In this document: positions 18,977-22,232 of the stretch, one piece after another
Position numbering within the stretch: the stretch's first letter is position 1
Layout of the letters: each line of letters starts with the position of its first letter
IMG/VR virus record: IMGVR_UViG_3300047560_000237
Location: 1-22,579 of that record
From: a virus
Direction: 5' to 3' (one strand)
DNA: 22,579 nt
The notes under the pieces: generated by a model
Databases searched by the model: none
What the model saw: the letters and a program-made list of their open reading frames with translations, nothing else
Told to the model about the DNA's origin: nothing
Program-made: the position numbers and the translations under genes

Positions 18977-19390
18977 TCAGGCTTTCAGTGCTTCGATGCC
19001 TGCGAACAGAGAACCGTAGTGCTCTGGCTTCACGTCGTTGATGTTGGCGTAACCGAGTTGGGTCAGCACAGCTTGGATGCTTGCACCCTTTGTTGGACCA
19101 AGAGCCTTGTATGCGCCCATGACGTAATCGATCAGACCTTTGCCGTCAGTGAACGGTGCGCCACCGGTAGGAGCGGGTGCAGTCACTTCGGGTGCTACGA
19201 ATGTGGGTGCAGCGGGCATCACAGGTGCTGGCGCTGCAACAGGGGCAGCGGCAACCACGGGTGCGGGGGCGGCAACAGGTGCGGCCACTTGTGCAACAGG
19301 AGCCACTGGTGCTACATTGCTGGTCTCCAGTTTGGCGGTGAGTGCGATGACAGCTTGCGTCAGTGCTTCAATTTTAGTTTCGAGTGACAT
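18977..19390 (-). CDS. Two-domain protein with Ala/Pro linker, unknown function
   Basis: A 137-residue protein in three parts: an N-terminal coil (1-25, KIEALTQAVIALTAKLE), a low-complexity Ala/Pro/Val linker (about 26-76, APVAPVAQVAAPVAAPAPV), and a small C-terminal helical domain (about 80-137, DGKGLIDYVMGAYKALGP and onward). The design suggests a multimerising coil joined by a flexible tether to a binding domain. AAAGGAA lies upstream of ATG 19390. It sits between the RHH regulator and the DUF2800 nuclease in the replication operon, so a scaffold for replication proteins is a reasonable guess, but I recognise no family. Confidence 0.6.
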   Translation of the reverse strand: MSLETKIEALTQAVIALTAKLETSNVAPVAPVAQVAAPVAAPAPVVAAAPVAAPAPVMPAAPTFVAPEVTAPAPTGGAPFTDGKGLIDYVMGAYKALGPTKGASIQAVLTQLGYANINDVKPEHYGSLFAGIEALKA

Positions 19391-19574
19391 ACAAAGATTC
19401 CTTTACGTTTACAGGGGGTTGAATTGTGAGACGGTCTTCATTGAACGCCTCAACTATTTCACGAAGGACTTCTGACGGTTGCCCGTACTTCCGAACCTTG
19501 GTGTGAAATTTGGAGTGTGTCTTGTCAGTCACTCGGACTACAAGAAACTTGGATTTGATTTTGGGAATTGCCAT
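19374..19574 (-). CDS. Ribbon-helix-helix (Arc/CopG-like) transcription regulator
   Basis: A 66-residue protein starting at MAIPKIKSK. A longer in-frame start at 19655 would run through the promoter region and is rejected. The layout is that of a ribbon-helix-helix domain: a strand at about 9-16 (KFLVVRVT), helix A about 18-30 (KTHSKFHTKVRKYG) and helix B about 33-46 (PSEVLREIVEAFNE). These proteins dimerise and bind short palindromes in tandem as repressors. It is the first gene of the leftward replication operon, and a palindrome lies 30 bases before its start, so autoregulation is likely. It overlaps the next gene by 17 bases. No good ribosome site is seen. Confidence 0.72.
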   Translation of the reverse strand: MAIPKIKSKFLVVRVTDKTHSKFHTKVRKYGQPSEVLREIVEAFNEDRLTIQPPVNVKESLYVTRN

Positions 19575-19603
19575 GACAAAATAAATTTTGGTTGCGTTGG
19601 GCA

Positions 19604-19618
19604 AAGTGTAGCACACTT
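19604..19618. promoter_or_regulatory. Operator-like palindrome AAGTGT-agc-ACACTT
   Basis: A perfect 6-3-6 inverted repeat in the divergent region. It covers the -10 of the leftward promoter and touches the -35 of the rightward promoter, so one bound protein could block both. Its core recurs at 12943-12956. The neighbouring RHH protein is the obvious candidate ligand, which is an inference. Confidence 0.6.
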
Positions 19619-19635
19619 GTGATACGATTGTGCAA
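19605..19635 (-). promoter_or_regulatory. Leftward promoter for replication operon
   Basis: Read leftwards, TTGCAC (19630-19635) serves as -35 and the extended -10 TGCTACACT ends at 19605. The 19-base spacer is long, but an extended -10 can compensate. Transcription would start near 19598, giving a leader of about 24 bases to the RHH gene. Confidence 0.5.
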
Positions 19636-19638
19636 CGG
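19617..19638 (+). repeat. Tandem imperfect 11-base repeat
   Basis: TTGTGATACGA and TTGTGCAACGG follow each other directly (8 of 11 bases identical), one helical turn apart, next to the palindrome and inside the rightward promoter. It could be an extra protein-binding site. Confidence 0.4.
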
Positions 19639-19646
19639 TTTAAAAT
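19617..19646 (+). promoter_or_regulatory. Rightward promoter for leader ORF and primase-helicase
   Basis: TTGTGA (19617-19622) and TAAAAT (19641-19646) are separated by 18 bases and would start transcription near 19653. The -35 overlaps the right end of the palindrome at 19604-19618. Confidence 0.5.
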
Positions 19647-19653
19647 ATTTTGC

Positions 19654-19687
19654 AAAAAAGAAAGCCCCGGTGGTAAGACCGAGGCTT
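19654..19687 (-). terminator. Leftward terminator / rightward 5' UTR hairpin
   Basis: AAGCC-C-CGGT, loop GGTAAG, then ACCG-A-GGCTT (19662-19687) gives 9 base pairs with one mismatch. Read leftwards the stem is followed by TTTCTTTTTT, a standard terminator. Read rightwards it is a hairpin starting about 10 bases from the transcript start and ending exactly before AAAGGAGG. Confidence 0.55.
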
Positions 19688-19704
19688 AAAGGAGGTTTCA
19701 ACCC

Positions 19705-19752
19705 ATGAACAAACAAACAGTTGGCAACATGCTTGTCGAGGCGATTATATGA
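19705..19752 (+). CDS. Leader micro-ORF (15 codons) coupled to primase-helicase
   Basis: ATG 19705 is preceded by a near-perfect ribosome site, AAAGGAGG (19688-19695), better than that of any large gene nearby. It encodes MNKQTVGNMLVEAII and stops in TGA at 19750-19752, which overlaps the ATG of the primase-helicase gene (ATGA). This suggests that ribosomes load at the strong site and restart on the large gene, making the peptide a translational coupler. Whether the peptide itself does anything is unknown. Confidence 0.55.
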   Translation: MNKQTVGNMLVEAII

Positions 19753-22232
19753 GCGTAGTTTCAACAGTGCAACAACACCCCGCCTCAGTGGATGCTTACA
19801 TCCGACACGGTTGGAATCTTGTACCGATTCCAATGGGAACCAAGGGGCCACGCACCCCCGGCTGGAACCTCAAAGCCAATGCACTCAAGTCTCAGACTGA
19901 TCTGCCACCGGGCTACGGCATCGGCTTGGCCCACGCATACAGCGGCACGATGGCGCTTGACATCGATGAATGGGAAAGCACATCCGTTGCGTTAAAACAA
20001 CACGGCATTGAATTGGCGGCGTTGTATGACGCCAACGATGCAGTGATCGTGGACAGTGGCCGCGCAGGTCATGGCAAGCTGTTGTACGCGATGCCCTTTG
20101 GGCTGGCGCTGCCCTCGAAGAAGATCATCATCAACGGTTTGACCGCCTACGAGTTGCGCTGCGCCACGGCCAATGGCCTCACGGTGCAGGACGTGCTGCC
20201 CCCATCGATTCATCCCGACACCAAGCAACCCTACCGCTGGGCAGGCAAGGGTCACTGGATGCGCTTGCCCACCATCCCCCAGCCAATCCTCGATCTGTGG
20301 CAGTCCATGCTCGATGCCGACAAGATTCGCGCCATTGGTACAGGTGGGTCAGTTGATGCGTCATGGGAAGAGATTCGCCAAGCCATCGAGTCCATCCCTG
20401 CTGACTGCACCCGAGAAGAGTGGGTCAACGTGGGCATGGCCCTGCACTGGGCGGGCAACCAAACCAACCAACTCGATCAGGCACTGTCACTGTGGAATGA
20501 GTGGTCCATGCAGTCAGCCACCAAGTACCCCGGCGAAGGTGGCATGATCACGCAGTGGGCTAGCTTCAGATCAGACAAGGCCACGGCCGTCAAGCTGGGA
20601 ACCCTTTTCCACATTGCCAAGAGTCACGGCTGGCAGCGCCCCTTGCCCGATGCGGCTGCCCTTTTCTCAGCGGTCAAGACAGCACCGATTGAGCCGATTC
20701 ACATCACGGCCAGCATTCGGCCACCAGCCCCCGAGATGGATATGTCGGTGTGGCCTAGCATATTGAGCACCCGCGCTCAAGAAATATCAGATAGCGTGGG
20801 CTGCGACCCTTTGGTTCCTTTGTTTGCCGGACTCTCTGCGGTCTGCGGTGTGGTAGATGCCCAGATGCGCCTCGAGTTGATGCCGGGCTTTAAGGTTCCC
20901 CCAGTTCTCTGGTTGATGACCTTGGGCGATCCGGCAGACAAAAAATCCCCCGGCTCACGTCCCATGCTGGCCCCGCTCAAGAATATCGAACTCGAAGACC
21001 GCCCACGCTACGGCAAAGAGTTGATGGACTGGGAGGGCAAAGAAGCTGCACACGCTGCGGCCAAGAAGGGCTTCCTTGAGTGGAGCGCCACGCCTGACGC
21101 GATGCTGGGCGGCGATGCACCCTCAGTGCCCGACCTGCCAGCGCAGCCCGTGCCCTTGAAGATCACGGTGTCGGACATCACGAGTCAGAAGCTGGTAAGG
21201 TCTGCGGCAGAGCGGCCACGGGGTCTGCTGTGCTACCTCGACGAGATGAACTCGTGGATCAAGAAGATGACCGACAAAACCAGCGGCGAGGATCGTTCGG
21301 CATGGGTTGTCAGTTATGAGTCAGAACCCTATGAGATGGACCGAGTGGGTGCTGGCGCGATTCACGCCGACAACTTGGCCGTGTCGATCTATGGCAACAT
21401 CCAGCCCCGAGTGTTCAAGGACAGCTTGGCGAGTCTGTCAAGTGATGGCCTGCTCCAGCGATTCATTCCCGCCATCTTGCGCGGGCATAAGACACGCCTT
21501 GGCAACCCCACCCCCGAATATTTGACGAGTGCTGCCGCATGGGAGAACACGCTGCGCTTGGTCTACGCCATGCCCCCGATGACCTACAAACTGAATCCCG
21601 AGGCATTCTTGGCGTTCCGTGAGTTCCAATCATGGTACGAAGAGGCCAAGCAGGACGAGCGGTTGCTGCTGTCCAATGAGACATTTATGACAGCATTCGG
21701 CAAACTTGAAGGTACTGCTGGCCGATTGATTCTGTTATTCCATGTGATGGAGAACCCATTCAGCCCGACAGTCGATGTGGCCGTGGTGAATCGCGTGGTG
21801 CAGTTGGTCAAGTCCTACATCATCCCAGCGTTTCGTTACGCCTTGGGCGAAGTGGCCGGTGTGGACATTTTTGATCAGTGGGTGGCCGACTACATCATCC
21901 AGCACTACGACAAAGGGCACATCACCTTGAGCGAGTTGAAGCGCGGCGCGCGCAGGCAGCTTGAGGGCAAGACATCGTGGATTCAAGATCAGATGGTGTT
22001 GGGGGCCATGCACACATTGGAACAGGCGAGTTGGGTGCTTCGTACCGATGATGGCAGCAAGGAGCACATGCACATTGCCGAGTGGGTGATCAACCCCGCA
22101 CTGGGTGAGAAGTTCGCAGAGCACCGCAAACGCGTGATTCTGGTCAAGCAGCGCCAGCGGGAAGAGATGTACCGCTTGTCACCAAAGCCGGTCAAGCCGG
22201 TCAAGGGATACAGTCCAGATATGGACGAATGA
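19749..22232 (+). CDS. Primase-polymerase / DUF3987 helicase fusion
   Basis: An 827-residue replication initiator. Residues about 12-190 are a bifunctional primase-polymerase (archaeo-eukaryotic primase fold), with Asp71-x-Asp73 in ALDIDEW, SGRAGHGK (103-110, catalytic His108) and ELRCATANG. Residues about 203-290 resemble the PriCT domain (EEIRQAIESIPADCTREEW, then ATKYPGEGG). The C-terminal half is a DUF3987 helicase-like ATPase, with a Walker A of the family's GDPADKKSP type near 391-400 and an LDEMNSW Walker B near 496-502. It should make primers and unwind DNA for the phage polymerase. GAGG lies 7 bases before ATG 19749, and the start also overlaps the leader ORF stop. Confidence 0.85.
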   Translation: MSVVSTVQQHPASVDAYIRHGWNLVPIPMGTKGPRTPGWNLKANALKSQTDLPPGYGIGLAHAYSGTMALDIDEWESTSVALKQHGIELAALYDANDAVIVDSGRAGHGKLLYAMPFGLALPSKKIIINGLTAYELRCATANGLTVQDVLPPSIHPDTKQPYRWAGKGHWMRLPTIPQPILDLWQSMLDADKIRAIGTGGSVDASWEEIRQAIESIPADCTREEWVNVGMALHWAGNQTNQLDQALSLWNEWSMQSATKYPGEGGMITQWASFRSDKATAVKLGTLFHIAKSHGWQRPLPDAAALFSAVKTAPIEPIHITASIRPPAPEMDMSVWPSILSTRAQEISDSVGCDPLVPLFAGLSAVCGVVDAQMRLELMPGFKVPPVLWLMTLGDPADKKSPGSRPMLAPLKNIELEDRPRYGKELMDWEGKEAAHAAAKKGFLEWSATPDAMLGGDAPSVPDLPAQPVPLKITVSDITSQKLVRSAAERPRGLLCYLDEMNSWIKKMTDKTSGEDRSAWVVSYESEPYEMDRVGAGAIHADNLAVSIYGNIQPRVFKDSLASLSSDGLLQRFIPAILRGHKTRLGNPTPEYLTSAAAWENTLRLVYAMPPMTYKLNPEAFLAFREFQSWYEEAKQDERLLLSNETFMTAFGKLEGTAGRLILLFHVMENPFSPTVDVAVVNRVVQLVKSYIIPAFRYALGEVAGVDIFDQWVADYIIQHYDKGHITLSELKRGARRQLEGKTSWIQDQMVLGAMHTLEQASWVLRTDDGSKEHMHIAEWVINPALGEKFAEHRKRVILVKQRQREEMYRLSPKPVKPVKGYSPDMDE

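Follow-up and report, generated by a model that had tools for sequence, protein, structure and literature searches.

The rep genes of the I-complex plasmids are coupled to a leader frame, and in phage lambda the antisense OOP RNA is complementary to the end of cII and not to the coupled leader of a replication gene. One of the closest described arrangements to the locus presented here is the copA/tap/repA region of plasmid R1 (IncFII). The leader frame of R1 is translationally coupled to the replication gene, and an antisense RNA transcribed from the other strand across the leader acts through the translation of this leader (PMC5717011). In the I-complex group (IncI, IncK, IncB), the antisense stem-loop RNA called RNAI inhibits translation of the rep mRNA (PMC10724649). 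Extrachromosomal mycobacterial prophages possess RNA-based origins, in which an initiator RNA is used instead of a RepA protein (PMC7157519).

The window analysed here, the whole stretch of 22,579 nucleotides of viral DNA, carries a comparable arrangement. As in R1, a leader ORF led by a Shine-Dalgarno (SD) sequence runs into the start of a replication gene, and a putative antisense RNA gene, composed of a promoter, stem-loops and a terminator, lies opposite this leader (Table 1). Unlike R1, the phage protein is of the Prim-Pol/PriCT_2/DUF3987 type and not a RepA-type plasmid initiator, the predicted antisense promoter sits on the ATGA junction itself, and 31 phage records were without a ParA (AAA_31) or integrase match. 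The resemblance to RNAI lies in an antisense stem-loop RNA directed against translation of a replication gene; I-complex control involves a pseudoknot, as indicated by reference titles, and the present comparison uses hairpins and Pfam domains only. The likeness to lambda OOP is that of a short phage antisense RNA encoded near replication genes, whereas the element described here covers the leader and the SD of the primase gene. With the mycobacterial prophage origins, the locus would share a reliance of phage replication on RNA; the RNA predicted here would keep a protein from being translated. The phage module had no Rfam match above the gathering score, which sets it apart from the known Rfam antisense families. 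Because of this and of the different Pfam domains, we do not claim that it belongs to the CopA family; the module would work like CopA/tap/repA of R1 and not be a member of it. In the open-licence PMC literature, no antisense RNA with a coupled leader was found at a phage primase. We propose, with a probability of roughly 0.8, that the leader ORF and the antisense RNA form a single regulatory module of the phage primase gene.

Table 1. Features predicted at the primase start and upstream of it (window coordinates).
Feature	Coordinates	Strand	Basis or remark
Divergent small gene, 66 aa, MAIPKIKS...	19374..19574	-	Upstream neighbour, outside the module
Alternative sense promoter, TTGTGA-18-TAAAAT	19617-19646	+	Promoter scan
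Candidate -10 of the sense transcript, TG-A-TACGAT	19623..19628	+	By eye, upstream sequences of 15 loci
Predicted antisense RNA, ~83 nt	19655..19737	-	Putative transcript, beginning ~7 nt after the -10 and ending within the T run
Intrinsic terminator, AAGCCTCGGTCTTACCACCGGGGCTT then TCTTTTTTGC	19662..19687	-	Contains a U.G pair whose plus-strand counterpart is a C-A mismatch
Leader Shine-Dalgarno, AAAGGAGG	19688..19695	+	SD:anti-SD energy
Leader ORF, 15 codons, MNKQTVGNMLVEAII	19705..19752	+	Stop overlaps the primase start (ATGA)
Hairpin I, antisense 5' stem-loop	19712..19737	-	Fold; the pairing in the window is an alternative one that differs from the family form
Antisense promoter -10, TATAAT	19744..19749	-	On the leader stop/primase start
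Primase-helicase-like gene, 827 aa (Prim-Pol/PriCT_2/DUF3987)	19749..22232	+	Pfam; downstream coupled gene
Antisense promoter -35, TTGCAC	19767..19772	-	Over primase codons 7-8; conserved with 17-bp spacer

Relatives of the Primase Locus

The primase was searched against IMG/VR (best 80 of 106 matches), GenBank phages, plasmids and genome contigs, and two relatives served as extra IMG/VR queries, giving at least 67 loci and the best 80 of 122, respectively. A locus was retained when one of seven query primases matched near its start. Of the 228 loci, five were left out, either without a usable start (L068, L069, L104) or too short (L177, L216). Merging of identical regions from -100 to +60 yielded 122 distinct primase starts, the window and phage DSL-LC05 among them; these loci are related, and the locus counts given below do not correspond to independent events. 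Among GenBank phages, DSL-LC05 was the only record to carry a close relative. Its genome was assembled from lake water; BACPHLIP classed the phage as virulent, and host prediction linked it to Enterobacterales (PMC10611076). Plasmid matches to the primase were at most 25.4% identical among the best 10 of 23. In a prophage search of the genome contigs, five stretches fitted a pattern and none of them codes for a primase relative.

A Leader ORF with a Conserved Frame

The primase protein matched the Pfam families PF09250 (5e-15), PF08707 (1.3e-15) and PF13148 (7.9e-41). The leader starts at an ATG (19705-19707) with AGGAGG nine bases before it, and its TGA (19750-19752) shares bases with the primase ATG (19749-19751), thus forming ATGA. 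The first-pass annotation had described a 15-codon leader with a strong SD joined in this way to the primase gene; its coordinates were correct and the arrangement recurs in relatives. It had also taken the leader SD for the best ribosome site near this locus, in agreement with the SD:anti-SD energies in the window of -12.3 kcal/mol for the leader and -5.9 kcal/mol for the region upstream of the primase, where GAGG lies 7 nt before the ATG as the gene's own site. Across the loci, the medians were -8.7 kcal/mol for the leader and -3.6 kcal/mol for the primase start. Of the two sites, the leader SD was the stronger in 86 of 96 loci and the weaker in 10.

An SD-led ORF ending in the primase ATGA was found at 97 of the 122 distinct primase starts by a rule-based scan that rewarded an end in ATGA with a bonus; one of the 97, a 6-codon TTG leader in L010, is doubtful and likely a miscall. 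A second scan ignored the end of the ORF and looked for an SD (at least 5 bases) before an ATG or GTG. It detected a start in 66 of the 100 module loci (34 had no qualifying start), and all 66 ORFs ended in the primase ATGA. The 22 non-module loci yielded one start (L110), for an ORF ending elsewhere. The leaders measured 9-15 or 29-33 codons, and most of the long ones start upstream of the hairpin and still end in ATGA. When relatives were compared, as the first-pass annotation had suggested, the reading frame proved to be conserved and the length did not. In L126, L130, L133, L140, L163 and their kin, the called leader of 30-33 codons starts upstream of the terminator hairpin and traverses it in frame.

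The same annotation had interpreted the leader as a device either for translational coupling or for peptide-dependent control. Coupling of the leader to the primase is supported by the kept frame, the ATGA overlap and the stronger leader SD. It may be partial, since the window primase keeps its GAGG and 10 of 96 loci have the stronger site at the primase. In the second interpretation, the nascent leader peptide would stall the ribosome or sense something, as in arrest-peptide or attenuation leaders. The peptides are indeed alike within large groups (LATAITSE, TTALSE), a likeness which can also stem from the overlapped antisense hairpin and -10. However, amino-acid changes do not seem to be held back: nearest-neighbour codon differences among leaders of 12-15 codons amounted to 63 nonsynonymous and 14 synonymous, a random single change giving 75:25, and in these comparisons purifying selection on the leader amino acids, the mark of sensing or arrest peptides, was not found. 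In addition, some indels between the hairpin arms (L003 versus L012, L058 and L052) alter the residues of the peptide and leave the arms and the frame intact. We regard control by the peptide as extremely improbable. Because the frame is kept while the ratio of changes is near random, the leader frame looks selected and the peptide does not.

A Predicted Antisense RNA Opposite the Leader

The opposite strand, overlooked in the earlier reading, carries a conserved unit of promoter, hairpin and terminator which predicts an antisense RNA over the leader SD. The sigma-70-like promoter TTGCAC-17-TATAAT (19772-19744, minus strand) lies on the leader/primase junction. It was not listed by a generic promoter scan of the window, the rule of which demands four of six positions per hexamer, TTGCAC having three. 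In relatives the -10 takes the forms TATAAT, TACAAT, TAGAAT, TAAAAT, TATACT and TACACT, and the -35 is mostly TTGCAC, TTGTAC or TTGAAC. When up to 1000 bp of each of the 122 loci were scanned for TTGN3-17-TAN3T, 113 sites were found on the minus strand, 99 of which were at the junction, and 16 in all on the plus strand.

The primase codons under the promoter are biased. The Gln8 codon, over the -35, is CAA in 99 of 99 loci (1065 of 3603 in the rest of the gene). The 100 module loci were picked for TTG at the -35, which for an in-frame Gln already implies CAA; no locus possessed a junction TAnnnT -10 without the TTG, so that no CAG case was excluded by the selection. The Val7 codon is GTC in 0 of 95 loci (1279 of 4666 in the rest of the gene) and GTA in 28 of 95 (185 of 4666). 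This bias is not implied by the TTG selection. By eye, the promoter was retained despite altered surroundings in L013, which has extra codons, and in L079, where the site moved by 2 bases. Further upstream, the window segment 19590-19650 contains overlapping divergent promoter-like sequences, TGTAGCACA...TGTGATACGATTGTGCAACGG, and sequences of this type recur in the relatives inspected.

The putative terminator is a GC-rich hairpin located directly upstream of the leader SD, and the RNA predicted to end there has a median length of 77 nt (range 57-94 nt, 98 loci). An earlier count of minus-strand T tails (98 of 98) had used hairpins chosen for such a tail and was repeated without the tail rule. 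Of the 8 bases that follow the stem, at least 6 were then T on the minus strand of all 100 module loci; on the plus strand, 0 of 100 reached this number. The means were 7.05 and 2.09 T, respectively. A plus-strand terminator was thus rejected.

The wobble pairs of the hairpins also fit the minus strand, as G.U pairs are far more frequent than A.C pairs. A strand-symmetric search of unique stems gave 11 G.U versus 2 A.C in the terminator (43 stems; both A.C pairs come from one miscalled stem, in L014) and 37 versus 2 in the 5' hairpin (24 stems), or 48 versus 4 for both hairpins. The model-fitted alignment gave 139 versus 2 (56 rows). In the 57 covariance-model matches, one of which is a partial match of 28 bases, 16 of 19 pairs changed on both sides and 95.7% of the cells were paired. 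None of 500 shuffles reached any of the five measures, and slid versions were 33-51% paired. The structure-guided alignment leans towards structure, and the strand-symmetric G.U/A.C count does not.

The model used (R2) was built from a structure-guided alignment of 10 rows with slid and shuffled controls; an earlier one (R1), from a 44-row MAFFT alignment, was set aside. On that antisense alignment (A1), RNAalifold found only 5 pairs because MAFFT had shifted the hairpin registers, and on the 44-row sense-strand alignment (A2) it found none. The rows of A1 and A2 are 44 of 54 nonredundant antisense stretches, and 10 that were hard to align were left out (L014, L015, L027, L076, L079, L094, L117, L127, L159, L168). 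Run on 82 chosen sources, 59 of which bear the module, the covariance model recovered the element from 55 of these 59, at the primase start, and missed L027, L076, L079 and L117. The window was among those recovered (19656-19735, minus strand), with a modest score of 39.2 bits (E 1.9e-6). Elsewhere in the 634,528 bases, only a 28-base partial match in L082 and a displaced copy in L046 were detected.

The antisense strand of the window folded with a z score of -2.86, and the minus strands of the window and four relatives ranged from -2.9 to -4.2. The plus strands of the same stretches scored weaker in three of the four relatives tested and equal in L047 (sense -4.25, antisense -4.19); a longer plus stretch of the window gave 0.1. 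GCAG is found in most loops of the 5' hairpin, and in L034 the linker exposes CUCCUUU and UUCAU, the complements of the SD and the start. Compared by eye, the antisense loop does not show the YUNR loop motif. Hairpin I was uncalled in 8 of 100 module loci and doubtful in others, such as L027, L079 and L127. In the clade of the window, L001 and L002, the 5' antisense hairpin deviates from the family form; judged by eye, the pairing of the leader codons there is better on the sense strand and includes G.U pairs. The antisense terminator of L014 and L015 has a mismatched upper stem and an enlarged loop.

Exact DNA patterns for two forms of the 5' hairpin had 55 matches in IMG/VR, of which 51 fell at this primase start (49 recognized by motif, L208 and L228 by eye). 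The matches in L201, L213, L230 and L235 were not at the primase start and were taken as chance. A search of Rfam 15 with positions 19400-20000 returned 8 matches up to E 5, all below the gathering scores, and these weak matches (rnk leader, snoRNAs and others) were set aside.

Joint Presence of the Leader, Promoter and Terminator

The promoter, the leader and the terminator were found together at 95 of the 122 primase starts, none of the three at 18, and a mixture at nine. Among the mixed loci, L076, L127 and L169 (3 of the 100 module loci) had the promoter and the terminator without a leader call. L014 and L015 had the promoter and the leader with an uncalled terminator, the hairpin of which has a longer loop and was found without the tail rule. 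The remaining four (L157, L170, L179, L183) were off-site promoter calls with CATATT at another place; they were counted as non-module after this tally, and the later comparisons set 100 module loci against 22 non-module loci. On an unrooted FastTree tree of 118 primases, built without the first 30 residues, the presence of the module changed 5 times, versus 19.6 times in shuffles. The non-module sets were the L084 clade, the L061+L170 clade, the L044 clade, the single L046, and L099/L106/L110, which are outlying and long-branched. Repeated loss of the whole module would be the simplest reading of this pattern. Three clades lack the leader, the antisense promoter and the terminator together and represent natural controls; the members without the module are L044, L055 and L059; L061 and L063-L066; L157, L170, L179, L181 and L183; and L084, L085, L087 and L088.

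This distribution bears on two other explanations. The leader could be an ordinary coupling ORF, in which case the minus-strand hairpin would be a terminator insulating against stray leftward transcription and the promoter-like site would be incidental. The kept leader frame fits such a view, and the terminator would shield the minus-strand upstream neighbour present at 76 of the 100 module loci (the neighbour is on the plus strand in 16, 7 loci are too short and 1 has none). However, the module was retained in the 16 loci where the neighbour runs in the primase direction, and conversely 15 of the 22 non-module loci lack the terminator while their neighbour is on the minus strand. An incidental site would leave unexplained that TTG-17-TAnnnT occupies a constant place in 99 loci and comes with a codon bias not accounted for by protein coding, that it was retained in L013 and L079 (by eye) and re-formed in L046, and that loci without the leader also lack it, with the exception of L076, L127 and L169. 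Hairpin I would have no role, and yet it covaries. We consider it unlikely that coupling is the whole explanation.

Alternatively, the site might be an additional promoter of the divergent early operon, the hairpin acting as an attenuator read through by antitermination. In the window, the divergent gene, the 66-aa product of which had no Pfam match, starts about 80 bases past the terminator, as this explanation would have it. But among the 92 module loci that could be classified, 16 have a neighbour that runs in the same direction as the primase, to which read-through would be antisense, and the 15 non-module loci mentioned above keep their minus-strand neighbour without this promoter. An attenuated leftward promoter thus appears very improbable.

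In L046, a gene of 158 aa for an HNH_3 endonuclease (1070-1543, E 1.4e-22) lies between the leader and the primase. The leader now terminates in the ATGA of the HNH_3 gene, and the old -35 remains with the primase. A replacement promoter, TTGACA-16-TAGAAT, is found where the HNH_3 gene splits the original one (L046:979-1547).

Proposed Regulation of the Primase

We propose that the leader and the antisense RNA act together in the following way. Ribosomes would load on the strong leader SD, translate 9-15 codons (about 30 in one group), stop at the ATGA and re-initiate at the primase start, the own site of which is mostly weaker as judged from the sequence. The minus-strand sigma-70-like promoter on the leader/primase junction would direct a short RNA made of a 5' stem-loop, a single-stranded linker that is complementary to the SD and the start of the leader, and a terminator hairpin. 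Comparative sequence analysis establishes the promoter, the terminator, the hairpins, the frame of the leader and the concerted presence or absence of these parts. We infer from this layout that the RNA is made, pairs with the leader mRNA and represses: by covering the SD it would halt translation of the leader and, via the coupling, synthesis of the primase. Since the antisense RNA would be produced from each copy of the genome, repression would increase with the copy number and exert a negative feedback on replication, as in plasmid R1. At 17 of 95 loci, the antisense 3' end falls short of the chosen leader start, which is located upstream of it; simple masking of the SD misfits these loci, in which the RNA would have to block an internal start or elongation.

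The combination of an antisense RNA and a coupled leader is classic in plasmid copy-number control, and the same layout is encountered here at an unrelated phage primase. It suggests that some phages count their genome copies, as opposed to simply replicating until lysis. The use of the RNA to the phage can be put forward only tentatively. These podovirus-like phages of about 37 kb may meter their own replication by means of the plasmid-style antisense RNA and coupled leader. A shut-down of the primase in proportion to the copy number would set the rounds of replication, time the shift from early to late, or maintain a low-copy carrier state, and the RNA would block superinfecting relatives. 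The module thereby predicts incompatibility between related phages. It is a compact unit spanning about 130 bp that is conserved in roughly a hundred related phage sequences, and it points to an annotation miss in DSL-LC05, the GenBank annotation of which shows nothing at 1950-2119, the site of its module, neither for the leader nor for the antisense RNA.

A carrier or plasmid state of these phages is possible. The 31 records of 36-39 kb contained no match to a phage integrase or to AAA_31 (ParA-type). A small HTH_3 protein was found with E <0.001 in 11 of 17 records, six of them above the family cut-off. Together with positions 36014-36325 of L241 (OR003940.1), these HTH_3 matches correspond to small HTH or repressor-like proteins, present despite the lack of an integrase or ParA match.
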